Below, one piece after another: positions 23,148 to 52,528 of a stretch of 64,000 nucleotides of DNA. Source of the DNA: Rhodothermales bacterium (GTDB lineage Bacteria > Bacteroidota > Rhodothermia > Rhodothermales > Bin80); the NCBI GenBank assembly GCA_958296045.1, contig CATQHT010000003.1:1747246-1811245 (forward strand). Reading direction: 5' to 3'. The first letter of the stretch is position 1. Each line of letters starts with the position of its first letter. The notes beneath the pieces are model-generated. The model had not been told where the DNA came from. It saw only the letters and a program-made list of their open reading frames with translations, and made no database searches. Position numbers and translations under genes: made by a program.

Positions 23148-23844
23148 CCCCAGGGTTTCCCCTGGGGCCCCGCACAGATCCGTGCGTGCGCGGTGACGCA
23201 CACGGCTCCTCCCGCAGGTCGCGCTGTCGCGCATGACGTTAGGAAGTGGGGATACCCACCTCCAGCCGTAAGCGGTACACCTGCGCCCCGACTGTGGCTC
23301 TGAGTCCACAGCCATTTGGACAAGATTCACGAAATCCGGCCCAGAGTCCGGCATGAATCCAGCTTCCCGCTTTCCCCTTGGGTGCGACCCTTGGCTCCAC
23401 CGGCTCCGCCCCGTGGTCATCCACGCGTTGTTCGCTGTCTTCGTAGCTACTATGGTCACATCTGACTTCTCTCCACCGTACATCCTCCGATCAGCATTTA
23501 GCCTACGCTTTGGCGACCCTCCCCGAAGGGATGGGTAATGGAGAGACCTCCCAGGTCCCGATGCAGTACGTACGTGCGTGCCTGGGTTCTTGGACACCGC
23601 GGGACCCTCCTCCGCCTCACCATTAACGGCAAAGAAGGTGTTGCCTTCGACCAAGCAGAAAGCCTCGGCATCCCGGACTATAACATTTTCGGTGCTCATT
23701 AGCCCTGCCCACCCGCACCTCTACCGACGCTTCGCTGGCACCCTCGCGGGTACCAACGCACGGCTCGAGGAGATGCGTGGATGGTTAATCCTTCACATCG
23801 GGAGACTTTCACTCCCTGTACTGGCACCAGTTAGCCTGGCGCAC
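23144..23844 (-). mobile_element. Group II intron relic, no reverse transcriptase, antisense inside lysAC
   Basis: On the minus strand the element starts with GTGCGCC (23844 downward), has the GAGTGAAAGTCTCC stretch typical of domain I, and ends with a domain V hairpin (GAGCCGTGTGCG...CGCACGCACGG near 23165-23215), a domain VI-like hairpin (CCCCAGGGGAAACCCTGGGG) and terminal CTAC. Weak, frameshifted similarity to the start of an intron-encoded protein (MYGGEKSD, AEPVEPR) remains in the middle, but no RT or maturase motif. Length 701 bp. Because it is antisense to lysAC it cannot be spliced out of that mRNA. Confidence 0.85.
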
Positions 23845-30924: not shown

Positions 30925-30965
30925 ACCGTGTGGAACCTGCTCTAGCGAAGGGACGTTACTATGAG

Positions 30966-31072
30966 CGGAAGGGTGAGTCCCGTACGGTCAGCTCCCTCTG
31001 AACCCCGTCAGGGCCGGAAGGCAGCAGCGGTAGGAGGTCGTAGCGACGCGATGCGGTACGCTTGCCCTTCTT
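30966..31072 (+). ncRNA. ffs: Signal recognition particle RNA (4.5S type)
   Basis: Contains the universally conserved apical region: GAACCCCGTCAGGGCCGGAA followed by GGCAGCAGCGGT. The GGAAGGGTGAG at the 5' side pairs with GCTTGCCCTTC at the 3' side, giving a short hairpin RNA of about 105 nt. It binds Ffh and guides membrane protein targeting. It sits between priA and yajC, the latter also a protein-export gene. Confidence 0.85.
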
Positions 31073-39891: not shown

Positions 39892-40503
39892 TTATGGTAA
39901 TGTTCTCAATTGGGGCAAAGGCAAGCCTAGTTCCAGCCATTCTTTAATTTCAACTAGCCCCACTTTTCTTGCTATTACCTCTTGTCCCAGTATTTGGAAG
40001 CGTTCTCCACTATTGCTAGGTACAACAACAAATTGGTCTACAACAACGACTTGAGGAGTAGATGGTACGCCTGGGAAATCAGTCCAGATATACTCCATTA
40101 CTCCCTTGTTTATCCAACTGCGTCCAGCCATAATCTCGTCAAACATACCAAACTTAGCAAGGTGATTAGTCCCGGCATTTGCAACCCAGTCCTTTGCAAT
40201 CCCCACTGTTGTAAAGGCTCTGCCTCGCTTGACAGCCTTTGTTTCTAACATCAACTTTATCGTTTCTACCATCTCTGGCAAAGCGCTATTATTAGAGGCC
40301 ACGCATCCAGATGATCCAATAAATATCAATGCCAATTCCGCGCCGTTGTTTGCAACATAGTTCGGTTGATACCGGTCCCTGTCTTGCAGGTGCCATGTAA
40401 CTGATATCTTGGGCAATACAATTACACGGAAGTACGCAAGTGCAAAGGCGATGCAAAACAGACCTACATAAATAAGTAACGCATATCTCCTTAACATAAT
40501 CAT
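39892..40503 (-). CDS. Membrane-anchored thioredoxin-fold-like protein (copy 1)
   Basis: A 203-aa protein starting at ATG 40503 (MIMLRRYALL), 19 bp after the propeller stop. One N-terminal transmembrane helix (LLIYVGLFCIAFALAYF), then a soluble part with AELALIFIGSSGCVASNN, which looks like the beta-strand/active-site turn of a thioredoxin fold but has a single Cys instead of CxxC, and STPQVVVVDQFVVV with the cis-Pro-like TPQ. This order resembles the protein at 45183-45758, which also follows a propeller gene. Redox function is inferred. Confidence 0.6.
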   Translation of the reverse strand: MIMLRRYALLIYVGLFCIAFALAYFRVIVLPKISVTWHLQDRDRYQPNYVANNGAELALIFIGSSGCVASNNSALPEMVETIKLMLETKAVKRGRAFTTVGIAKDWVANAGTNHLAKFGMFDEIMAGRSWINKGVMEYIWTDFPGVPSTPQVVVVDQFVVVPSNSGERFQILGQEVIARKVGLVEIKEWLELGLPLPQLRTLP

Positions 40504-40522
40504 TGCGTATTGAGAATCTAGT

Positions 40523-41713
40523 CTATGATTTTGGTGAAGGCAAACTGATTTCATGAATTACGACCTGAGGAAAGGGGGTGTTTGTAGCCGCATACACACG
40601 TCCGTGCCCAATATAATAAATAAAGGGCAGCGAATCGTTGACATACAATCCATTCCCAGTGCGTATATCAAGTATGTACGTAAGAATGGCTCCATAATCC
40701 TTGAGCGCTAATACGCTCTCGGGTGTTTGCCTAGCAACTTGGACAATCACACTGCCAAAAGCAACCTGAATATGCCTGATCTCGTCAGAAAAGCCATCGG
40801 CATTAGTGTAGAATCCAAGCCCCCTTTCGTCTTGATTTTCTGTAATTGTAAGGGATTGAAAATCTGAGAGCGTTGTTATCCACTGCGTAACACCTTGTCG
40901 AGAATAGGCAGTAACTACTGGAAAATAACGAGAGGCAAACACTACTGTATTTGTCCCTGTATCGCAGGCGATGTTGCCCAAAGATAGAGAGGATCGCACT
41001 AGTGGACTGTTAGAGGAATATGTCCCTCTAAATGAATGAATCCGAGCATCCGCCATCCCTATGGCGTGGATGACCTTGTCTCGTTCCCTCCATATGGCAT
41101 GTGCAAAGATGTCAGAGTCAAATGCGCAACCATTTAGCATTGCGAATGGGACATGCACAGTTGTGTCTAATACAACAGTGGAATCCACATGATCGAAAAC
41201 CGTGATTGCCCGACTGTCCATGACCATCACTTGCCGTTGGCTGGTTATAGCGAGACTATGTGGCCTCCAGAATTCGCCTGGTGCTTCACCAGCACGGCCA
41301 AAAGATGTGATGAAACTGCCATCCGGATGGAAGATGCGTACATTAGCTCTTCGAGAATCGAGTATGAAAATATTCCCGAAATGATCCACGGCAATATCGT
41401 CTACACGACCTAACATCTCGTGATCATCACCTTCGAGAACACCGATAGTGAGTAGTTCTTTTGTCGTTAGCAAAGCTCGCGCAAGTTCGTGAATCTCATC
41501 TCTGCCGTGAATCCCATCGCCCATTGGGATGGTATGTGTAACTTCCGATCTGCCAGGAAGATTGTCCTGAGTTGGATGGCTGATGCTGCGTGCCATAGAT
41601 GGGGCCGCACGCTCTTCCGAGTTCTTGCAAGCAGGAAGTATTAACATGAACAGCATCAATCGCAGGAGAAACCAACGCCGGGGGTGTGCTGCTACTCGGT
41701 GCAGCGTACGCAC
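40523..41713 (-). CDS. 6-bladed beta-propeller lipoprotein (copy 1)
   Basis: About 396 aa from GTG 41713; ATGs at 41656 or 41647 are possible shorter starts. The lipobox is MLILPAC, predicting an outer-membrane or periplasmic lipoprotein. NHL/TolB-like repeats follow: GRVDDIAVDHFGNIFILDSR, IFHPDGSFITSFGRAGEAPG, FWRPHSLAITSQRQVMVMD. Proteins of this class are common in Bacteroidota beside small Cys-bearing peptides and thioredoxin-like proteins. Here the order is peptide (42940-43176), group II intron relic, this gene, thioredoxin-like gene. Confidence 0.78.
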   Translation of the reverse strand: MRTLHRVAAHPRRWFLLRLMLFMLILPACKNSEERAAPSMARSISHPTQDNLPGRSEVTHTIPMGDGIHGRDEIHELARALLTTKELLTIGVLEGDDHEMLGRVDDIAVDHFGNIFILDSRRANVRIFHPDGSFITSFGRAGEAPGEFWRPHSLAITSQRQVMVMDSRAITVFDHVDSTVVLDTTVHVPFAMLNGCAFDSDIFAHAIWRERDKVIHAIGMADARIHSFRGTYSSNSPLVRSSLSLGNIACDTGTNTVVFASRYFPVVTAYSRQGVTQWITTLSDFQSLTITENQDERGLGFYTNADGFSDEIRHIQVAFGSVIVQVARQTPESVLALKDYGAILTYILDIRTGNGLYVNDSLPFIYYIGHGRVYAATNTPFPQVVIHEISLPSPKS

Positions 41714-41858
41714 CGGCGGCGGCGGTGCCGTACGACCACCACAGCCACTAGTCTGGGCACATACAGCACGGAATGTACCCACGAGCGTGACACACGATTT
41801 CGAGTCGGGGTAGGGTAGCATAGCATTTCGGGTTGGATGTCGGGAAGTTGGCTGTTGA

Positions 41859-42900
41859 GTAGCGCGGGGGACCCTCACCGCTAGGCTCTCACCTCACACG
41901 GCTCTTCTCGTGCAGCCTCTTGGATTTGAACAAAGAGGGTCCGTGAAGCTCCGACCAGTGAACGAACAGGTTCGGGTTTCGGTAGGCCATAGACCTTAAC
42001 CAGCTGTATGCACGGCGCTTGCCGCGTGGCAACCGCTTGTATTTGCGGTCGGGCCCATACCGCCAGATGGTGATCTATGGATCGCAGCACGTAGTACAGG
42101 ATCCACTTGTTGTAGGTCCCCCAGACTTGCTCTATGGAGACTGGAAACGGCTTTGCCTTCTTCATCTGAGTCATCCCCATTTGAGGTTGCCCCGATGATT
42201 CCAGCAGCACGAGCTGTCCCCGTCGCTCCGAGCCCTTTACAGGATCATCCCCGCTATTACGAGACAGTCCGCCCCTGTGGAGTGCATTGGTACTCTGTGA
42301 CTTGTGGGTATTGCCCACTTGCCAGGCTCCCTTAGCATCACTCCGACAGGTTCTCACGTTCCACGCAAGGGCCTGAGTCGCGCTCTCGCCGCCTGTATGC
42401 CGGATGCCGATCGGACAAGCTTCAGGACCCCTCCGACCTCGTCCCAGGACCAAATCCCTACCCTGGTTTTGGCATCGTCCGTGCTTTTTGACACGTCTTC
42501 AACGGTTCACTCTCGTTCGACTTCACGACTCGCACCTGACGGGGTACTTCCCCGCCTTTTCCCATCTTGCTAACCACCACGCCTCTTAAGCGCAGCAGCA
42601 GTGGGCGGTTTGCAGCCTCCACCTGACTGGTGGCTGCGGAGGGCCTACCTCCATCCCTCACGCAGTTATCAGGCTCTTTTTCCTACCTCATACTTTCACC
42701 TCCATGCCTGTACGTGACACACGGATAGCGAGCAGAAAGGAGTGCTGGAGTCCTGGTTAGCACACCGGAGTCCGAATCCGACAGTCTTCGGGTATCCACC
42801 AAAACATCGCCGAGCTGCTTTAGGACGGATGCCTTCGGCTTGGTGGAGTTGCACACGCGCCACGACCCTCCTTCCAGAAACTCGCTTTCTCCTCCCGAGG
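41859..42900 (-). mobile_element. Group II intron relic with internally deleted reverse transcriptase
   Basis: The minus strand shows 5' RNA features of the LtrA-type introns (GAAGTACCCCGTCAGGTGCG then GTCGTGAAGTCGAACGAGAG near 42500-42580; GGGAGCCTGGCAAGTGGG-like stretch near 42320), then a shrunken intron-encoded gene, then a damaged domain V (GAGCCGTGTGAGGTGAGAG) and a CTAC-like end near 41859. The 5' boundary is approximate. It separates the peptide gene from the propeller gene on the same strand. Confidence 0.7.
41884..42165 (-). pseudogene. Intron-encoded protein: N terminus fused to maturase C terminus
   Basis: Starts MKKAKPFPVSIEQVW as LtrA-type proteins do, but jumps within a few residues to the GIIM maturase region TYNKWILYYVLRSIDHHLAVWA. 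After a one-base frameshift near 42055 the frame continues RKYKRLPRGKRRAYSWL and NPNLFVHWSELH. The reverse-transcriptase domain is entirely deleted. Confidence 0.8.
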
Positions 42901-42939
42901 TGGGGCACTGACGGCTAACCGGCAGGCAGACCGTTCTCG

Positions 42940-43176
42940 CTAGCAATCAGTTACAAGGCAGCCGATGTCGCCGTTTTGAAGTCGCACCCTTTTGCAGTTG
43001 TATCGGTCTTCTGGAGTCGCAGTGACGTCACACTGCGTGCCTACACACCAATTGAACTCACAACCGGCTTCTTCCTCCTCCGTGGTTAAAGCAACCGTAC
43101 CGCTTACGGCACCTATTCCCAGCGCTAGAAGCCCTATGGCAATCGGGATGCAGAATCGCTTGATGTAGCGTTTCAT
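42940..43176 (-). CDS. Secreted Cys-rich peptide precursor
   Basis: A 78-aa protein. Basic start (MKRYIKR), hydrophobic helix (IPIAIGLLALGIGAVSGTVA), an acidic EEEE stretch, then a mature-like part with six Cys at 39, 44, 49, 61, 73 and 78 ending in Cys. The layout (leader, short acidic region, Cys-bearing tail) recalls NVEALA-type peptides encoded beside 6-bladed propeller lipoproteins in Bacteroidota. It lies upstream of such a gene, separated only by the intron relic. Function unknown; three disulfides are possible. Confidence 0.65.
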   Translation of the reverse strand: MKRYIKRFCIPIAIGLLALGIGAVSGTVALTTEEEEAGCEFNWCVGTQCDVTATPEDRYNCKRVRLQNGDIGCLVTDC

Positions 43177-43325
43177 AGCAAGAGTGGTCTGGTGACAGCG
43201 GAAAGGTAACCACCAAGAGCATCTAAGTCAAGCAGTTTGAGAAACTGGGTGCGATGACAAACATCCGTTAATTGCCCTTAACGGATCTATTACCGCAGCG
43301 GCCGCGTTGACAAACCATCGTTCAC

Positions 43326-44283
43326 TCGACCGAGGCCCCCCATCCAGGACCCTGTACTAGCTCCCCTTGCGGCCACCCCCGACGTCAGCGAAGCCACCCA
43401 ACGGGCCCTGCGCCACGCCCACGCGCCGGAAACCCGCCGCGTCTACGCCCTGCACCAGCAAGCCTTCGAAGCCTGGCTCCAACAAGAGCTGCTCGGTGCC
43501 ACACCCGTAGAAGTGGCCAACTACCTGGCCGGCCCCGGCCGCGCAAAAAGCCACAGCTGGCGCGCACAGGCCACCGCCGCCCTGAGCTGTGCCTTCCACG
43601 AAGCCGGCTTGCCCTCGCCGGCCCAACACCCGGGCGTGCGGCGAACCCTGCGGGGATTGCGCCGACAACGGCCACATGCGCCGCAACAGGCCGCCCCCCT
43701 CACCGAGACCGCCATCGCCGCCATAGAAGCCACCGCCCTGTTGCCCCGCACCGGACGCGGCGGACACCCCGAATCCCCTACCACCGCGCGCCAGCGAGGA
43801 TGCACCGACATCGCCCTCGTGCGCACCATGCGCGATGCGCTGCTCAGAAGAAGTGAAGCCGCACGGCTTACGTGGAAAGACGTGTCCTTCGAAGCCGACG
43901 GCAGCGGAAGACTCCACATCGGTGGACCCACCAAAACCGATCCGGAAGGCAGCCAACCCCACGTCGCCTACCTTACCCGCACCACCGTACAGGCGCTTCG
44001 GGCCATCGAACCCGCCGTCGGCGACCCCCAGGCGGCCCTCTTCGGACTGGGCTCCCGACAAATCGCTCAACGCATCCAGGCCGCCGCCCAAGCCGCCGGA
44101 CTGGACGGCACATTCTCCGGACACAGCGGACGCACCGGCGCCGCGCACAGCCTCGCCAAACGTGGCGCCACCCTCGTGGAACTCCAACAAGCCGGACGAT
44201 GGCAATCACCCCACATGCCCGCCGCATACGCCAGAAATGCACGCGCCAAACATAACGCCGTAGCACGACTGCTGGAATCGTAA
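43326..44283 (+). pseudogene. Tyrosine recombinase copy 1, start codon lost
   Basis: XerC/D-like integrase frame. SAM-like N domain (LRHAHAPETRRVYALHQQAF), catalytic domain with Arg in MRDALLRRSEAARLTWKDV, HSGRTGAAHS (HxxR), GRWQSPHMPAAYAR (His/Trp and Tyr). Relative to the inverted copy at 50.2-51.1 kb it lacks six bases (GCGGTG) containing the GTG start, and no other start precedes the N domain; the first is a GTG at 43513 inside it. The catalytic part is intact, so a truncated product is possible. Confidence 0.75.
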
Positions 44284-44707
44284 TGCCGAGCGCCACCAAG
44301 ACGCGGCGAGCTGCGCATCTGCGGCCTACGCGCATGGGGGAATCGCGGCCGAGGCAACCTGGGAAGTCGAGCACCGCGACGTCGATGCACTGCAACCGAC
44401 TCTGGGCCCTAGTGGGGTGAGCTAGCGTGTTTGGCAAGCTGACCGACGACAACTTTCCGCACAGCAGGCAGCTAAGAGCGCTGGTCTGATTTAACGACGT
44501 CCACAGCGGCCCGTAGCGACCGTTGCGGGCCACAACCGGTACCCAAAGGCCCCACGGCCTAGGCGGGCCGTACAGGGGCGCTCAGCGTCTGCATCGGTTT
44601 TGCTCGCCCCCAACGGCGTGTTGTGGCAGGCCATCCGCACACTCCCGATACGCGCACGCACGATCCCACGACGCCATCAGAAACTATCTGGCGCTCTGAA
44701 GCTCGCG
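44284..44707. other. Non-coding stretch, one hairpin
   Basis: No convincing gene. A hairpin GGCCCG...CGGGCC at 44508-44531 resembles one at about 4197-4221 (CCCGCA...TGCGGG), both with a GC-rich stem around a short TAGCGAC/CTATCG loop. Confidence 0.4.
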
Positions 44708-44920
44708 TCAGCTCGCCTCCCGAGGGCGCCCACAAGCATAGCAATGTCCGGGAGGTGTAACCGGCTTTGGCGGTAACGTAATGTATTCCCGATTCGAAGT
44801 AGCTTTCATGGCCCTCAAATCATCGAACATGGCACGCACATCATAATTGAACCGGGCTGCACGTGCCTCCCGAATCGCCCGTATTTCAGCGATGATCGGA
44901 TCCGTTTCTGGTACTTCCAT
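44708..44920 (-). CDS. Antitoxin-like small protein partnering a PIN toxin
   Basis: A 70-aa protein. DPIIAEIRAIREARAARFNY followed by DVRAMFDDLRAMKA resembles the small proteins encoded next to PIN-domain toxins of the VapC type. A CYACGRP knuckle is added at the C terminus. It overlaps the PIN fragment by 35 bp. Since the toxin is truncated it is probably an orphan. Confidence 0.55.
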   Translation of the reverse strand: MEVPETDPIIAEIRAIREARAARFNYDVRAMFDDLRAMKATSNREYITLPPKPVTPPGHCYACGRPREAS

Positions 44921-45158
44921 AAGAGGCCTCCATCAAGTCATCAGGCGTGCAAATCGCCACTGGCGTATAACCCATATGCCGGCGTATACGCTCGATTCTG
45001 GAGCGCTGATATACATTTGCGATGTGCTTCAAGTTCCATGTCACCAAGCAATCTACGCTGTTGGTAACAGCGATAGCAATATGAGCAGCATCATCTGCAG
45101 CCCGGCGTGGTACAGCACCATGAACCAGCAATTCATCTTCCCGACGGAGGGCGGCCAT
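44886..45158 (-). pseudogene. PIN-domain (VapC-like) toxin, N-terminal part missing
   Basis: The 90-residue frame covers only the second half of a PIN domain: AADDAAHIAIAVTNSVDCLV, TWNLKHIAN, then GYTPVAICTPDDLME. The first Asp and N-terminal strands are missing; immediately upstream is the thioredoxin-like gene. RNase activity is unlikely. Confidence 0.65.
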
Positions 45159-45182
45159 TGACCGGTTGGTGTAGCGTTCGGG

Positions 45183-45758
45183 TTACTGCAGCACCGAAGA
45201 AGAGTTGAAACTCGTCGTCTGATCGAACACATGCGTGATGACCTGCGACTCGGTCAAGACCACTTGCGGCGTACGGATACCCATGGTACGCAGGTTAAAG
45301 TCCGGATTTTGCGATACGAGGAAAGGAAAGTGGGCCTGACTGACGCGCCGCAAGCGTAACGATTCGTAAGTCCCCTGCTCAACTCCCACCAAGGGATCAG
45401 CGTAGATAGCCAGAACAGGGAGATCCGGCAAATTAACTTCTGGTTGCTGCTCTGACCAATAGCGGAGCAGCTTCACCTGATCGGATGAGCAGCTCACACC
45501 GCCCAGCAGTATTATCAGTGCCGTGTCGGGCATGACCAAGCTCTGCTCTGCCAGCGGTGCACGGGACTTTGCTTCGATCAGGTCACTCACGGGAATATCA
45601 ACTCCCAACAGAGCTGATGAATCTGGCAAGGAACGCGGCGTGACTGATTGTGGCCCTGGGCCTGTGGATGTAAGCCATATTTGCGCACCAGCGAGCACTG
45701 CAAACGCTATTGCAAATGTCCCTGCAAACCATAGTATGAGTCGGATGCGGTTAACCAT
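45183..45758 (-). CDS. Membrane-anchored thioredoxin-fold-like protein (copy 2)
   Basis: A 191-aa protein. The ATG at 45758 (MVNRIRLILWF) overlaps the propeller stop by 8 bp. One transmembrane helix (FAGTFAIAFAVLAGAQIWL), then DTALIILLGGVSCSSDQVKL with a single Cys at the position of the active-site turn, and MGIRTPQVVLT with the TPQ motif. Same architecture as 39892-40503 although overall identity is low. The coupling to a propeller lipoprotein is repeated. Confidence 0.62.
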   Translation of the reverse strand: MVNRIRLILWFAGTFAIAFAVLAGAQIWLTSTGPGPQSVTPRSLPDSSALLGVDIPVSDLIEAKSRAPLAEQSLVMPDTALIILLGGVSCSSDQVKLLRYWSEQQPEVNLPDLPVLAIYADPLVGVEQGTYESLRLRRVSQAHFPFLVSQNPDFNLRTMGIRTPQVVLTESQVITHVFDQTTSFNSSSVLQ

Positions 45759-46800
45759 CGGCGCTTTCAGGTCGGATGAATCGGTAGCGAACAATTACCG
45801 GATTGCCCAATTCACCATCTGCTAGGGCCTCATGAGGCCCTAAGACGTAGAAAAAACCGTTGGTAGCGGCCCGGGGATAGACAGACGATATCGTGCTACG
45901 ACCAGTAAAATGCCCAGCGTTGCTGGCGATGTTTAGGCCCACCATTATTCGCGATTGTGTGCCGTTAAGGTGCCACCGTTCATTCAAGTTGCCAAATACT
46001 GTCATACGCGTTAGGCCATCGAGCGCGAAAATTGCCACTGCGGACGGATACTCGTCTGACATTGTGGAAAGGACTTGTGCACTAGCACCCTTGGGCAAGT
46101 CATCCAGACGCTCCTCAAAAAAGTCTGGCTGAAATCGCGGGCCGCTTGACCATGCAGCCACCCCGTCCATACTCTCGGCATAGATATAGTACGGTCCGTC
46201 TTCAAAGCATTCGAGGGATCGGCCCGGTTGTCCTTGAAAAAACTGATTCAGGAGAGCAAAGCGTGGCGGATCTATTTGCAATTTGCCCAATGCTTCCAGC
46301 GACGGTGAATACACTCCGATGGTGGCTTCGTCCCGGACGTAGACGCGGTGCAAGTACAAGGAGTCGTGGCGTGCACAAATTGCCTTTGACAATGCATCCA
46401 GCCGCCTAGTTGCGCTGACGCAGTTGCCTTCGGCATCAAAAAAGGCAGCGGCACGTCCAAATGCAAAAGTCATCACCTCCGAGTCGCCGATGAAGCGGGA
46501 GCTCCCGGGTATGAAATTGGCCTCGTCCGGTAAACAGCCTAGCGTAGTATACGAGTTCAGATGACGGCCTGAAGGAGAGAACCGGTGTATGCCTCGTCCA
46601 ATTTCGTCACTGACCAAGAGCTCCCCGCGAGCGTTAACGTCCAGGTACCCGATACTGCCAATGAGAACGGAAGAGTCCAGACGCACGGTGTCGTGCGTGG
46701 CGAATAGCTCCGCGAAGGGGACGATTGGGGAACGCTTAATTTCCTGTTCTGGCTGAGCGGAACTGCATGCGGCTGCAAGTATAGCCAGCAAGACCAGCAT
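45751..46800 (-). CDS. 6-bladed beta-propeller lipoprotein (copy 2)
   Basis: 349 aa from ATG 46800; the open frame runs 25 codons further upstream but that part lies mostly in the IS3 end. The start gives a compact signal with lipobox AILAAAC. Repeats include IGYLDVNARGELLVSDEIGR then IHRFSPSGRHLNSY, and a FAFGRAAAFFDAEGN blade. IS3 ends 14 bp upstream of the ATG and so has replaced the native promoter and any upstream peptide gene; expression would depend on the IS. Confidence 0.75.
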   Translation of the reverse strand: MLVLLAILAAACSSAQPEQEIKRSPIVPFAELFATHDTVRLDSSVLIGSIGYLDVNARGELLVSDEIGRGIHRFSPSGRHLNSYTTLGCLPDEANFIPGSSRFIGDSEVMTFAFGRAAAFFDAEGNCVSATRRLDALSKAICARHDSLYLHRVYVRDEATIGVYSPSLEALGKLQIDPPRFALLNQFFQGQPGRSLECFEDGPYYIYAESMDGVAAWSSGPRFQPDFFEERLDDLPKGASAQVLSTMSDEYPSAVAIFALDGLTRMTVFGNLNERWHLNGTQSRIMVGLNIASNAGHFTGRSTISSVYPRAATNGFFYVLGPHEALADGELGNPVIVRYRFIRPESADG

Positions 46801-46871
46801 TCCGTTGGCGGAATGTGCCAACGTTTTTGCAACACATTTTGGATTGGGATTAGGGAGTATTGAAGGCGTGA

Positions 46872-48011
46872 TCATGGCTGGTTGGGGTTGTTCTGCTGGG
46901 CGGTTCCGGGGCTTGATCCGGGTTGGCTTTGTCGTCGGTAAGGGTGCGGGTCTTGCGGCTTGTTGATCCAGGCGGCTTTAGGTGGCATGGGCACGAACGG
47001 CACGCCGTTTGGAAAGCGTTCCGGATGCTTTTGGTATGCCTCTCGGAGCGTCTTTTGCCGTCCAGCCCGCACCGCTTCTACTTCGCCGTAGTGCACAATG
47101 GCAGGGCGCATCAGCGCTAAGCCTGTATGATAGTGCTCGTGATTGTACCAGTCGAGGAAGCGGCTGGTCCAAGCCTTGGCATGTTCCAGCGAGCCAAAGT
47201 GTTTCGGGTAGGTCGGCCGATACTTCATCGTCTTGAACTGCGCCTCTGAGTAGGGATTATCGTTGGAGTTGTACGGACGCGTGAGCGACCGGTCGACACC
47301 CAGCTCGGCCAGCAGTTGGGCCACCGTTTTTGACGTCATGGCACTGCCACGGTCGCTGTGGATGATCAGCTGGTTGGGCTCAATACCCTGTCGGAAGCAT
47401 GTCGTCTCGATCAGCGTGCGTGCGAGCAGGCCAGACTCACCTGGCGCAATAGCCCACCCCACCACGTAACGGCTGTAGACGTCCATGATCACGTATAACG
47501 CATAGTGAACCCACTTCTGTGGCCCGCGCAGTTTTGTGATGTCCCAAGACCATAGCTGGTTGGGCGCCGTCGCCAGCAGCTCCGGCTTGCGGTATGGTGG
47601 GTGCGTTCGCTGATGGCGTCGCTCGCCGACTTCATTCCGCTCTGCCAGTATCCGGTACATGGTTCTCCAGTGACACAGATAGCATGCTTCATCCAACAGC
47701 GTCGCGTAAATCTGACGAGGCGGCATGTCGAAGAACCGGGCACTGTTGAGTATGGCACGGATCCGTTCGCGCTCCGCCGAAGGTATACGGCGGAGCCCTG
47801 CGCGCTTCTTGCTGGGACTTGACGGTGACTTCGGATTCATGGCCCGATACAACCACCACCGGGATACCCCCATCCACCTGCAAGCCTCGGCCTTCGGGAT
47901 CGCCGGTGTACCCATGGTTAGTAACTGCATCATGGCTATTCTCCCGGGCCGATCTCGTCGGTCCCAAACAGCGCGCAGAGTTTTTTTGGACATCCATGAT
48001 CGTTTCCGCAT
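46872..48011 (-). CDS. IS3 transposase orfB
   Basis: DDE integrase-like protein of up to 379 aa. HTH_21-like RRIPSAERERIRAILNS, then LWSWDITKLRG (first Asp), YVIMDVYSRYVVGW, IIHSDRGSAMTSK (second Asp), and NDNPYSEAQFKTMKYRP (Glu). It is read by frameshifting from orfA at A7C (47990-47997). The stop overlaps the ATG of the longest propeller frame. Confidence 0.93.
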   Translation of the reverse strand: MRKRSWMSKKTLRAVWDRRDRPGRIAMMQLLTMGTPAIPKAEACRWMGVSRWWLYRAMNPKSPSSPSKKRAGLRRIPSAERERIRAILNSARFFDMPPRQIYATLLDEACYLCHWRTMYRILAERNEVGERRHQRTHPPYRKPELLATAPNQLWSWDITKLRGPQKWVHYALYVIMDVYSRYVVGWAIAPGESGLLARTLIETTCFRQGIEPNQLIIHSDRGSAMTSKTVAQLLAELGVDRSLTRPYNSNDNPYSEAQFKTMKYRPTYPKHFGSLEHAKAWTSRFLDWYNHEHYHTGLALMRPAIVHYGEVEAVRAGRQKTLREAYQKHPERFPNGVPFVPMPPKAAWINKPQDPHPYRRQSQPGSSPGTAQQNNPNQP

Positions 48012-48348
48012 TCGCCAACTGTCGCTTCAGCCGCTTGATTTCCACTTTGTGCTGCCGCAGTGCCTCCGTATGCCTTTTGCAAGACCCGCATTCTTGTTGG
48101 GACCCCTCAGACGAGGCCCGCAGTTGACGCCGCCATCTCGTTAGTGCGGAACTGTACAGTCCTTCGCGTCGCAGCAGAGCGCCGATCTGCCCTGGCTCCG
48201 TACAAGATTCCACCTCCTGTAGGATCCGCCGCTTATACGCCATGGAGTAGCGCCGCCGCTTCGGACGTAGGGGAACCTCAGTGGGCGGCACGCCAGGGCG
48301 GCTATGCTGGGCGGTTGAATCAGGCTTTTTCATGGTTGTTGCATTCAT
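47689..48348 (-). CDS. IS3 orfA with programmed -1 frameshift site
   Basis: HTH_Tnp_1-like protein: RRRYSMAYKRRILQEVESC, SALTRWRRQL, then a leucine-zipper segment EIKRLKRQLANAETIM. At 47990-47997 (minus strand) the slippery A AAA AAC sits just after the zipper and allows a -1 shift into orfB, the usual IS3 mode. The zero frame happens to stay open for another 100 codons, longer than usual for orfA. Confidence 0.85.
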   Translation of the reverse strand: MNATTMKKPDSTAQHSRPGVPPTEVPLRPKRRRYSMAYKRRILQEVESCTEPGQIGALLRREGLYSSALTRWRRQLRASSEGSQQECGSCKRHTEALRQHKVEIKRLKRQLANAETIMDVQKNSARCLGPTRSARENSHDAVTNHGYTGDPEGRGLQVDGGIPVVVVSGHESEVTVKSQQEARRAPPYTFGGARTDPCHTQQCPVLRHAASSDLRDAVG

Positions 48349-48612
48349 TTAGTGGACGAGGAAATCCAGCCGCATACCCGTCGCGCCATGTGCAATGCTG
48401 CATAATCGCTGAGTCACAAAGTGTTGCGCATATTATAGGCACACAGAGCGGCACGCCAGGGCGGCTATGCTGGGCGGTTGAATCAGGCTTTTTCATGGTT
48501 GTTGAATTCATTTAGTGGACGAGGAAACCCAGCCGCATACCCGTCGCGCCATGTGCAATGCTGCATAATCGCTGAGTCACAAAGTGTTGCGCATATTATA
48601 GGCACACAGAGC
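48287..48612. repeat. 163-bp tandem duplication of the IS3 orfA end
   Basis: Units 48287-48449 and 48450-48612 are nearly identical; each starts GGCACGCCAGGGCGGC and ends GGCACACAGAGC. The unit contains the orfA start region and the terminal GGCACA of IS3. The second unit abuts the truncated IS21 copy. Confidence 0.9.
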
Positions 48613-49831: not shown

Positions 49832-50164
49832 TCACGGCTTCACTTGTGAAACTGGGTGCCCAGTTAGGGTATGCCGAAGCCCAACCAAACCGCAGTGAAA
49901 TGCGAAACAGTTACCTCGGATTCAGCCTGGTGCCTGGCGGGCGCGCAACGTATGCGCCCGCTTTGGCCATGAGTCCAGACGTGATGCGGCAGCCCGTGAT
50001 GCGGCTGAAGCTGGACGAGCACGGCATAGCTCGCGCCCTGGCAGGCATACCAGGCGGCACTGGACGCGGCTTACGTCGCGAACGAAGCGTTGCAGGTCGC
50101 GAAGTACCCGCCCGGCTAAAGAGCCGTATCCGGGGTGCCCCCCTCCCCTGATTATCGTATTTCG
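49832..50164. other. Unassigned stretch with a possible decayed coding segment
   Basis: Between the IS21 end and integrase copy 2. On the plus strand, near 50050-50126, one frame reads AYQAALDAAYVANEALQVAK, a pattern like the helices of TolC-type outer-membrane factors, but stops surround it. Too weak to name. Confidence 0.3.
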
Positions 50165-51091
50165 TTTCCAGCAGTCGTGCTACGGCGTTGTGTTGGGCGC
50201 CTGCATTTCTGGCGTATACGGCGGGCATGTGGGGTGATTGCCATCGTCCGGCTTGTTGGAGTTCCACGAGGGTGGCGCCGCGTTGGGCGAGGCTGTGCGC
50301 GGGGCCGGTGCGTCCGCTGTGTCTGGAGAAGGGGCCCTCGAGTCCGGCGGCATGGGCGGCGGCTTGGATGCGTAGGGCGATTTGCCGGGGGCCCAGTCCG
50401 AAGAGGGAAGCCTGGGGGTCGCCGACGGCGGGTTCGATGGCCATGAGCGCCTGTACGGTGGCGCGGGTAAGGTAGGCGGCGTGGGGTTGGCTGCCTTCTG
50501 GATCGGTTTTGGTGGGTCCGCGGATGTGGAGTCTTCCGCTGCCGTCGGCTTCGAAGGACACGTCTTTCCAAGTAAGCCGTGTGGCTTCACTTCTTCTGAG
50601 CAGCGCATCGCGCATGGTGCGCACGAGGGCGATGTCGGTTAATCCTCGCCCCCGCGTCCGGTGCGGGGCGACAGGGCGGTGGCTTCTATGGCGGCGATGG
50701 CGGTCTCGGTGAGGGGGGCGGCTTGTTGCGGCGCATTCGGCCGTTGTCGGCGCAATCCCCGCAGGGTTCGCCGCACGCCCGGGTGTTGGGCCGGCGAGGG
50801 CAAGCCGGCTTCGTGGAAGGCGTGCCTCAGGGCGGCGGTGGCCTGTGCGCGCCAGCTGTGGCTTTTTGTGCTGCCGGGGCTGGCCAGGTAGTTGGCCACT
50901 TCTACGGGTGTAGCGCGGAGCAACGCCTGTTGGAGCCAGGCTGCGAAGGCTTGCTGGTGCAGGGCGTAGACGCGGCGGGTTTCCGGTGCGTGGGCATGGC
51001 GCAACGCCTGTTGGGTGGCTTCGCTGACGTCGGGGGTGGCCGCAAGGGGCACCGCAGCTGGTACAGGGTCCTGGATGGGGGGCCTCGGTCG
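50165..51091 (-). pseudogene. Tyrosine recombinase copy 2, frameshifted
   Basis: Inverted copy of the 43.3-44.3 kb integrase, homologous from TCGACCGAGG to the last codons. GTG start at 51052 (MPLAATPDVSEA). Around 50640 a deletion of roughly 30 bp plus substitutions creates RGGED-stop; the catalytic part continues in another frame (MRDALLRRSEATRLTW, HSGRTGPAHS, GRWQSPHMPAVYAR). The stop codon of the C-terminal part is also lost and the frame runs on to 49911. Confidence 0.8.
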
Positions 51092-51093
51092 AA

Positions 51094-51380
51094 TTGAAGA
51101 GGGCTCGTCAACGTGATTCTTTGCGGTCCCTGCAGGCAGGGCTCAAGAAGCTCCGTATGCCGGCGATACGTGCTTGCTTCAGGGAGAAGGCCGATACGGT
51201 CCGCCGGGAGGCCATGAGATTTGAGCGCTTTCTGCTGGAGCTGGTGGAACAGGAGCGCCACAACAATCGCATTCAGCGTTGGCTGCGTGCGTCTCGGCTG
51301 CCGCTGGAGAAGACGCTGGACGCGTTCGATCGTGGCCGGTTGCCCCTGCGGATGGACGAAGCCACTCGCGCAGCGCTAAC
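51094..51380 (+). pseudogene. IstB N-terminal fragment
   Basis: SLRSLQAGLKKLRMPAIRAC, then EAMRFERFLLELVEQERHNN and RASRLPLEKTLDAFDRGRLP match the N-terminal domain of IstB-like helper ATPases. The AAA+ core is missing. It differs from the istB at 19.9 kb and could belong to the same lost element as the IstA fragment at 39.3 kb. Confidence 0.7.
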
Positions 51381-51382
51381 TA

Positions 51383-52528
51383 CTATGACAAATCTGGCAC
51401 CGAGTAGCGAACAATCATCGGGATGGGACTGTGGAAAAGTGCGTACAGTTCACGCCCGTCAACTGATACGGCTATTTCGACGGGATCGCCCCCAAGGTCC
51501 AGAACGGCAATTGGCGTCCCGGTCCACGTGAATACAATGACATCAGCTTCTTTGGTAGGCCGGCCGAGTCTGTCCGTACCAGAATACAAGCCAAAAATCA
51601 GTTCGTCCGTTACGCTTAGCCCCAAGTAAGCTATACGCGTTTCCTCCGGTTCCAAGGCCAGCCATGAATTTCCCTCTGAACCATAATATGTGTCGTAGAC
51701 AGGTTCATAAAACCCGGGGCCTCGTACCAGCGCTTGCAACTTCCCACGACCATAGATCTCAAGGCGGTCCGTGTATAGGTTCGCAAGTGCTATCCTGCGG
51801 CCATCCATCGAAACCTTCAGTGTGGCCAGGTATGCCTGGTGACGGACATGTATCGGGGTGCTCGTTCCACCTGGCGGGCTTGGGCCTATCATCCGGTGAA
51901 ATGTACCGTCTGCGTCGTACAGAGCCAGCCTGCCTGGACCATAGAAACCCATACTCACAATGCTATCTCCATCTATCCAGGCAGGACTTACTGGAGTTCC
52001 CGCAGCATCATCGAGTCTTACCGCCCTGCCGGTCAATGACTGCGTCTGAACCAGTTCATCGACGTCTACATGATGCAGCCACCGAGAATTTAAATCGAAG
52101 GCCCACCCCTGGTCACGGCCATGCCGGAAATTTAAATTTCTCAGCGAGCCGACTTCTCCAGGACCTTCCCCGAACGCACCAGCCGAAGTAATCAACGCTC
52201 CCGTCTTCCTGTCGAAAACCCAAAATGGTCTCCGTACGTTTCTATCCTCAACGAGGATGTACTTCGGACCAACTGCTATGTCCGAGGGTACTCCAAGAGA
52301 ATCTGCGTCGGCGAGTACGTCCCCTCGTAGAGAATATGATGCCAGCGAATCGGTAGAAAATCGTATCGTCGGCGCAACGTCGTCCAGTACAAGCACATCC
52401 GTCGAACACGACACACCCACGAGCGTGACCAGCCCGAAATACAGTACAGAGCATGACCGAAAGCATGGCAGCAGCAACCCTAGTTTTAGCCGTATCCTAC
52501 GACATCTATATCGTTTTACCTTTCTCAT
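51383..52528 (-). CDS. 6-bladed beta-propeller lipoprotein (copy 3)
   Basis: 381 aa with a basic start (MRKVKRYRCRRIRLK), a hydrophobic segment and lipobox TLVGVSC. Propeller-like repeats: SDIAVGPKYILVEDRNV, FDRKTGALITSAGAFGEGPG (a signature seen in TolB-like lipoproteins), WAFDLNSRWLHHVDVD. No thioredoxin-like gene follows; the IstB fragment lies 3 bp downstream, so the original neighbour may have been removed. Confidence 0.75.
   Translation of the reverse strand: MRKVKRYRCRRIRLKLGLLLPCFRSCSVLYFGLVTLVGVSCSTDVLVLDDVAPTIRFSTDSLASYSLRGDVLADADSLGVPSDIAVGPKYILVEDRNVRRPFWVFDRKTGALITSAGAFGEGPGEVGSLRNLNFRHGRDQGWAFDLNSRWLHHVDVDELVQTQSLTGRAVRLDDAAGTPVSPAWIDGDSIVSMGFYGPGRLALYDADGTFHRMIGPSPPGGTSTPIHVRHQAYLATLKVSMDGRRIALANLYTDRLEIYGRGKLQALVRGPGFYEPVYDTYYGSEGNSWLALEPEETRIAYLGLSVTDELIFGLYSGTDRLGRPTKEADVIVFTWTGTPIAVLDLGGDPVEIAVSVDGRELYALFHSPIPMIVRYSVPDLS

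Follow-up and report, generated by a model that had tools for sequence, protein, structure and literature searches.

The 64,000-nucleotide stretch analysed here (the window, C3:1747246-1811245 within the 4.78-Mb genome of a Rhodothermales bacterium; positions below count from its first letter) carries two copies of a module in which a beta-propeller lipoprotein gene adjoins a gene for a thioredoxin-like (Trx-like) protein. Copy 1 (39892-43176, minus strand) has the order peptide, propeller 1, Trx-like protein 1; copy 2 (45183-46800, minus strand) has the order propeller 2, Trx-like protein 2, without a peptide. The genes are as follows.

42940..43176 (minus): exported peptide, 78 amino acids (aa), with a hydrophobic leader and a mature six-cysteine part, CX4C-X4-C-X11-C-X11-CX4C.
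40523..41878 (minus; 451-aa open reading frame [ORF]): propeller 1, a six-bladed beta-propeller lipoprotein by its PF17170 match, the propeller profile and its paralogs.
39892..40503 (minus; from Met18, ORF 39892-40554): Trx-like protein 1, with a membrane anchor and a predicted TlpA-derived thioredoxin fold; motifs GSSGCVAS (C84) and STPQ.
45751..46800 (minus; 374-aa ORF 45751-46875): propeller 2, a lipoprotein matched by the propeller profiles, with its native start MLVLLAILAAAC inside the ORF.
45183..45758 (minus; from Met13, ORF 45183-45794): Trx-like protein 2, with a membrane anchor; motifs GGVSCSSDQV (C102) and RTPQ; found beside type-2 propellers.

An earlier reading of the letters alone (the sequence-only reading) had given these gene positions with a 19-bp gap and an 8-bp overlap, all of which were reproduced: 19 bp lie between the propeller 1 stop and the Trx-like start if that start is Met18, and in copy 2 the Trx-like start overlaps the propeller 2 stop by 8 bp if it is Met13. 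The peptide with six mature cysteines that it had placed upstream in copy 1 is also there (Cys 39, 44, 49, 61, 73, and 78); Cys9 lies in the leader.

Recurrence of this neighbourhood, set beforehand as the refuting test, was strongly supported from both ends. When loci were retrieved with the Trx-like protein as the only query, a propeller gene was its immediate neighbour in 40 of 46, and two of the six exceptions lie at contig ends. A peptide profile, trained on propeller-adjacent peptides and holding no positional information, was run genome-wide over 146 genomes of the window's class and matched 23 of them; among 30 loci inspected, 29 contain a propeller within 1.5 kb, in 28 cases on the same strand, and the remaining locus has the Trx-like gene. 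The strict pattern of six cysteines and a hydrophobic leader was counted 27 times in the 74 kb that lie upstream of propellers versus 5 times in 1.3 Mb elsewhere, and those five are module members beyond the set distance. Counting Trx-like ORFs of at least 400 bp in named, sampled, and own-genome loci together, a propeller is adjacent to 50 of 56 and directly upstream in 47, most commonly with a 4-bp overlap.

The Trx-like profiles were searched in a phylum sample of 296 genomes. That of Trx-like protein 1 matches 21 genomes from 13 genera, and a scan of genome contigs for this protein yielded 17 named loci; the Trx-like protein 2 family is confined to the window's own family (6/296). The Trx-like and propeller pair occurs in named loci of Rhodothermota, Balneolota (L140, the cultured Fodinibius salsisoli), Gemmatimonadota, and Acidobacteriota (L135). 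A peptide was seen in named loci of Rhodothermota and Gemmatimonadota as well as in other members of the window's class; L135 and L140 yielded none.

All that 22 aligned peptides have in common is the start Met and six cysteines, spaced CX4C ... C ... C ... CX4C. The mature cysteine number is even (6 or 8) in 31/34 peptides, as expected if every cysteine is paired. Peptides of a second type (type 2) have 7 or 8 mature cysteines, most end in CLYCGP, and they are found only with type-2 propellers. In the tandem pair C2_811k/C2_813k, the nonsynonymous divergence (dN) of the core is 0.27, versus 0.06 for the leader and 0.08 for the propeller. A ratio to synonymous divergence (dN/dS) above 1 was not found in the peptide core (0.86 in this pair, 0.4-1.0 overall); by these estimates the core is variable, and diversifying selection is not demonstrated by dN/dS. 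The peptide has no meaningful match in Pfam or NCBIfam, in which the family is undescribed, and no PDB relative in a sequence search; a literature search returned no description of the peptide or the cassette. Assignment to fulvocin-like bacteriocins was rejected, as a single member matched the NCBIfam model at chance level (E 0.11). Other Cys-rich, secreted-type peptides lie directly upstream of propellers with no intact Trx-like gene (L048:5239-5547, L105:3166-3468, and L052:5087-5356) and differ from both main types.

The single active-site-turn cysteine and TPQ motif attributed to both Trx-like proteins are present, and that cysteine is invariant in each family. In family 1 (31 sequences), C84, E140, G144, and P167 (the TPQ proline) are invariant; the nearest relatives of Trx-like protein 1 among named records are those of a Rhodothermales metagenome-assembled genome. 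Its AlphaFold2 (AF2) model has a predicted local distance difference test score (pLDDT) of 87 and a predicted template modelling (TM) score of 0.70. The top Foldseek matches are mostly thioredoxin folds of the TlpA/ResA/SCO kind (probability mostly 0.9-1.0), at modest scores (best E 1e-3, TM 0.3-0.5), and hhalign against TlpA homologs of related genomes (E 3e-7, probability 93%) aligns C84 to the first CxxC cysteine. The CxxC active site itself is absent, the window sequence reading CVAS, and by model and alignment we assign a thioredoxin fold derived from TlpA in which the second active-site cysteine is missing. Across family 1 (n = 33), the second-cysteine position holds Ser in 16, Cys in 12, and Ala in 4. 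The single-Cys state looks derived because two family relatives without a propeller retain CxxC and cluster with each other next to the midpoint root, although the position of that root is not firm. Matches of the Trx-like profile to RIG-I-type helicases in the PDB (E 1e-4) were set aside as spurious, because they fall on an unrelated part and are at odds with the fold search.

Trx-like protein 2 is not recognisably related to Trx-like protein 1 (hhalign probability 3%). C102 is invariant in its family (11 sequences), and its TPQ motif and predicted strand-helix order resemble redoxin. It has no Pfam or PDB match and no hhalign profile match to TlpA, peroxiredoxin, or Trx-like family 1; neither Trx-like protein has a meaningful match in Pfam or NCBIfam. 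The claim of a thioredoxin-like fold thus stood for copy 1 (AF2, Foldseek, and TlpA hhalign) and is undecided for copy 2. Truncated type-2 Trx-like ORFs occur beside propellers in several genomes (L159, L164, L168, and L171, also L042); they are of near-equal length (83-87 aa) and comprise anchor and linker only, which is odd for random decay.

Propeller 1 matches PF17170 (DUF5128; E 4e-10, 39.7 bits versus a gathering score of 22.9) and has an LPAC lipobox at residue 84 of the ORF. Propeller 2 has no Pfam match, and so falls below the PF17170 gathering score; it is linked to the propeller family by profile, via intermediate propellers. Across 15 propellers only D174, G187, and P200 are invariant, with no invariant His. 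NHL propellers are among the PDB structures that match the propeller profile. Short Cys-rich peptides, proposed as something to look for upstream of other propellers, were found intact or decayed at about 14 of the 25 propellers of the family in the window's genome, some of them without a Trx-like gene. A further propeller expected at 51.4-52.5 kb is also present:

51383..52528 (minus): third propeller lipoprotein, TolB_like/BF3164 type (PF15869, E 3e-7), outside any cassette, with no adjoining peptide or Trx-like gene.

Both window copies have been interrupted by mobile elements.

42534..42652 (minus): group II intron D1-D4 ribozyme segment (RF01999, 101.8 bits), between peptide and propeller 1.
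46809..48448 (minus): IS3-family insertion sequence (IS) element, with a 99% identical copy in locus L055.

From the sequence and comparison with L036, the intron 3' part apparently reaches about 41880 and supplies the first codons of the 451-aa propeller 1 ORF; the annotated GTG start falls inside this apparent 3' end, and the true start is uncertain. The copy 1 unit has a second copy at C3:42.0-43.8 kb (98% identical over 1.4 kb), where the peptide is broken after about 43 codons and the first codons alone remain of the Trx-like gene. In copy 2, the first 67 bp (residues 1-23) of the propeller 2 ORF derive from the IS3 element, which separates the copy from its upstream region, the peptide site in paralogous units. 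Copy 2 very probably lost its peptide to this insertion, because all six type-2 paralogous units in the window's genome (L038, L039, L040 [twice], L041, and L042) encode a Cys-rich peptide, with the end of the peptide gene overlapping the start of the propeller gene; in-frame stops occur in some of them. Identical type-2 peptide genes at two separate genome sites, L040:6775-7077 and L041:6870-7172, share the same in-frame leader stop; either one dead gene was recently copied or translation begins at a more internal position. Many copies in this genome have IS elements, an intron, or pseudogenes around them, which would fit a trait with high turnover.

Further features of the window lie around the module. 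A recombinase-like ORF region in two inverted copies (43305-44284 and 50159-51113, 89.6% identical) flanks it. At 44708-45158 (minus), a short antitoxin-like ORF and a PIN-domain fragment may be a decayed toxin-antitoxin pair; the fragment matches PF13470 below cut-off (E 0.02), and the rest comes from motif reading. A direct tandem duplication of 165 bp (98.8% identical) lies at the IS3 end (48285-48612). Another, different group II intron ribozyme is at 23585-23809 (minus; RF02005, 175 bits), and a small signal recognition particle RNA of the Rfam Bacteroidales_small_SRP family (RF04183, 92 bits) is at 30964-31071 (plus), in a Rhodothermales-like genome.

Gene content varies among cassettes. 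Five loci (L086, L087, L091, L123, and L124) hold two peptides and two type-1 propellers but a single Trx-like gene. This suggests that the unit consists of peptide and propeller and that the Trx-like protein is shared between units. A signal peptidase I gene (PF10502) belongs to four cassettes: in L110, L126, and L130 it immediately follows the Trx-like gene, and in L094 it separates the peptide gene from the propeller gene; these cassettes come from genomes of the window's class and from Gemmatimonadota. No exporter gene, and no regulator or TonB-receptor family, recurs among the neighbour families beside cassettes. An ATP-binding cassette-type permease cluster near Trx-like genes in four loci was judged a coincidence (two were inspected, one of them on the opposite strand). 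A known anti-phage defence system was ruled out, as no PADLOC defence model matched at E 0.01.

We propose, with a probability of about 0.5, that the cassette makes a disulfide-bonded exported peptide together with its binding partner. Taking the observed gene order, tight coupling, invariant cysteines, occasional signal peptidase I, and fold of Trx-like protein 1 as its base, the mechanism would run as follows. The peptide would be exported via Sec and its leader removed by signal peptidase. Three (or four) disulfides would then form in the periplasm, helped by the membrane-anchored Trx-like protein, which may act as a CxxC or monothiol enzyme in making or reshuffling disulfides, or may hold the peptide as a mixed disulfide. 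The folded peptide would be bound by the co-encoded propeller lipoprotein, and the pair either held at the envelope or released from it; one Trx-like protein could serve several peptide-propeller pairs. The words "disulfide-bonded" and "processed" in the sequence-only reading fit these data (six invariant cysteines, an even number in 31/34, a partner derived from TlpA, and four cassettes with signal peptidase I). Overall, what that reading observed was upheld, and its interpretation was upheld in part, namely in the recurrence and in the disulfide and processing fit.

Several results weigh against this proposal. About 11 of the 25 same-family propellers in the window's genome have no detected peptide. 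The 1:1 ratio of peptide to propeller is broken in L110 (3:1:1, peptide to propeller to Trx-like), L136 (2:1:1), L119 (2:1, peptide to propeller), and L097 (0:2:1). Distances between peptides correlate with those between propellers (r 0.28, p 0.005), but this co-divergence vanishes given their common tie to the Trx-like protein (partial Mantel r 0.07, p 0.23), so that the correlation indicates nothing beyond shared descent. Propeller sites specific to peptide core classes are not clearly enriched (8 versus 5 and 2). The AF2 model of Trx-like protein 2 has a pLDDT of 40, from only two input sequences.

As to function, we tentatively picture a surface peptide system, a possibility that we put at somewhat short of even: disulfide mini-proteins, each with its own propeller receptor or neutraliser, would share a monothiol Trx-like folding enzyme, in multi-copy cassettes of Rhodothermota, Balneolota, and Gemmatimonadota, for recognition or antagonism between neighbouring cells. 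A rather unlikely alternative is a bacteriocin with its immunity protein, in which the peptide hits related bacteria, the propeller lipoprotein neutralises it, and the Trx-like protein is a dedicated folding enzyme. Lipoproteins of the NisI type bind their lantibiotic. The core that varies behind a more conserved leader in C2_811k/C2_813k would suit such a pair, as would the equal numbers of peptides and propellers in the five loci above and the multi-copy, partly pseudogenised, IS-rich loci of the window's genome. However, core dN/dS stays below 1 where an arms race would lead one to expect more than 1 (an expectation that is not strictly defining), the fulvocin-related match is at chance level, no exporter gene recurs, and many propellers lack a peptide.

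The correlation of propeller with Trx-like distances (r 0.80) fits instead a redox unit like that of human NHLRC2, here in two polypeptides: propeller and Trx-like protein would form an envelope complex with a substrate cleft, and the peptide would serve as a structural subunit or regulatory lid and would not be released as an effector. The NHL propellers of the PDB matched by our propeller profile point the same way, and in NHLRC2 itself a Trx-like domain and a six-bladed NHL propeller are part of one polypeptide, with a conserved cleft between the two (PMC9259100). We nonetheless think it improbable, since it leaves the extra peptides per cassette, the fast-changing cores, and the signal peptidase unexplained, and since peptide-propeller pairs stand without an intact Trx-like gene in L048, L105, and L251-L254 (in L251-L254, within the sequence covered).

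Doubtful to a slightly greater degree is an extracellular signal and its receptor, with the peptide as ligand and the propeller as envelope sensor; paired numbers and variable cores would suit private channels, but with no regulator or TonB-receptor family recurring beside cassettes, no route for a signal is seen. The bacteriocin and signalling accounts are both compatible with the mechanism proposed above. That the genes are neighbours by chance in IS-rich DNA, or that the peptide ORFs are not real genes, can be practically dismissed: the window copies are cut by IS3 and an intron, but the association recurs across phyla, the cysteines are invariant, and the peptide pattern has no independent background in 1.3 Mb.

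Lipoproteins annotated merely as "6-bladed beta-propeller" are multi-copy in the window's genome, and our literature search found no role described for them, DUF5128 and BF3164 included; for a subset, the cassette offers a testable hypothesis, and it brings in a family of disulfide mini-proteins that neither Pfam nor NCBIfam contains. If these peptides do act between cells, they would constitute a recognition or antagonism system in phyla with few known; if they do not, the cassette would lend itself to the study of how monothiol proteins with a thioredoxin fold take part in disulfide formation.

Among described systems, the nearest pairing of the two folds that we found is human NHLRC2 (PMC9259100), a single polypeptide in which a conserved cleft, whose ligand is unknown, lies between the Trx-like domain and the six-bladed NHL propeller. 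The cassette resembles it in pairing a Trx-like fold with a six-bladed NHL-type propeller, but consists of separate genes in the loci examined, encodes two envelope proteins with mostly a single active-site cysteine, and adds a Cys-rich peptide. TlpA and ResA are close to Trx-like protein 1 in fold matches and in the alignment of its one cysteine to the first of CxxC, whereas the cassette protein mostly has Ser or Ala at the second and is tied to peptide and propeller genes. Propellers 1 and 3 match PF17170 (DUF5128) and PF15869 (TolB_like, BF3164), respectively, but propeller 2 is too distant for either model. The NVEALA peptides (PF14055) of Bacteroidales, which we take to be short exported Cys-containing peptides near propeller lipoproteins, served as a lead only; the assignment was rejected, as PF14055 matched 0/22 cassette peptides (E up to 1) and none of the sampled genomes that belong to the window's class. 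Peptidyl-alpha-hydroxyglycine lyase is an NHL-type propeller enzyme of peptide amidation that acts on secreted peptides, and its chemistry needs a conserved His set. The propeller profile matches its structure (PDB 3fvz, E 2e-6), but the cassette propellers lack that set, D174, G187, and P200 being their only invariant residues (n = 15). By the tests made, the cassette fits no known system, and its parts appear to be variants of known folds.

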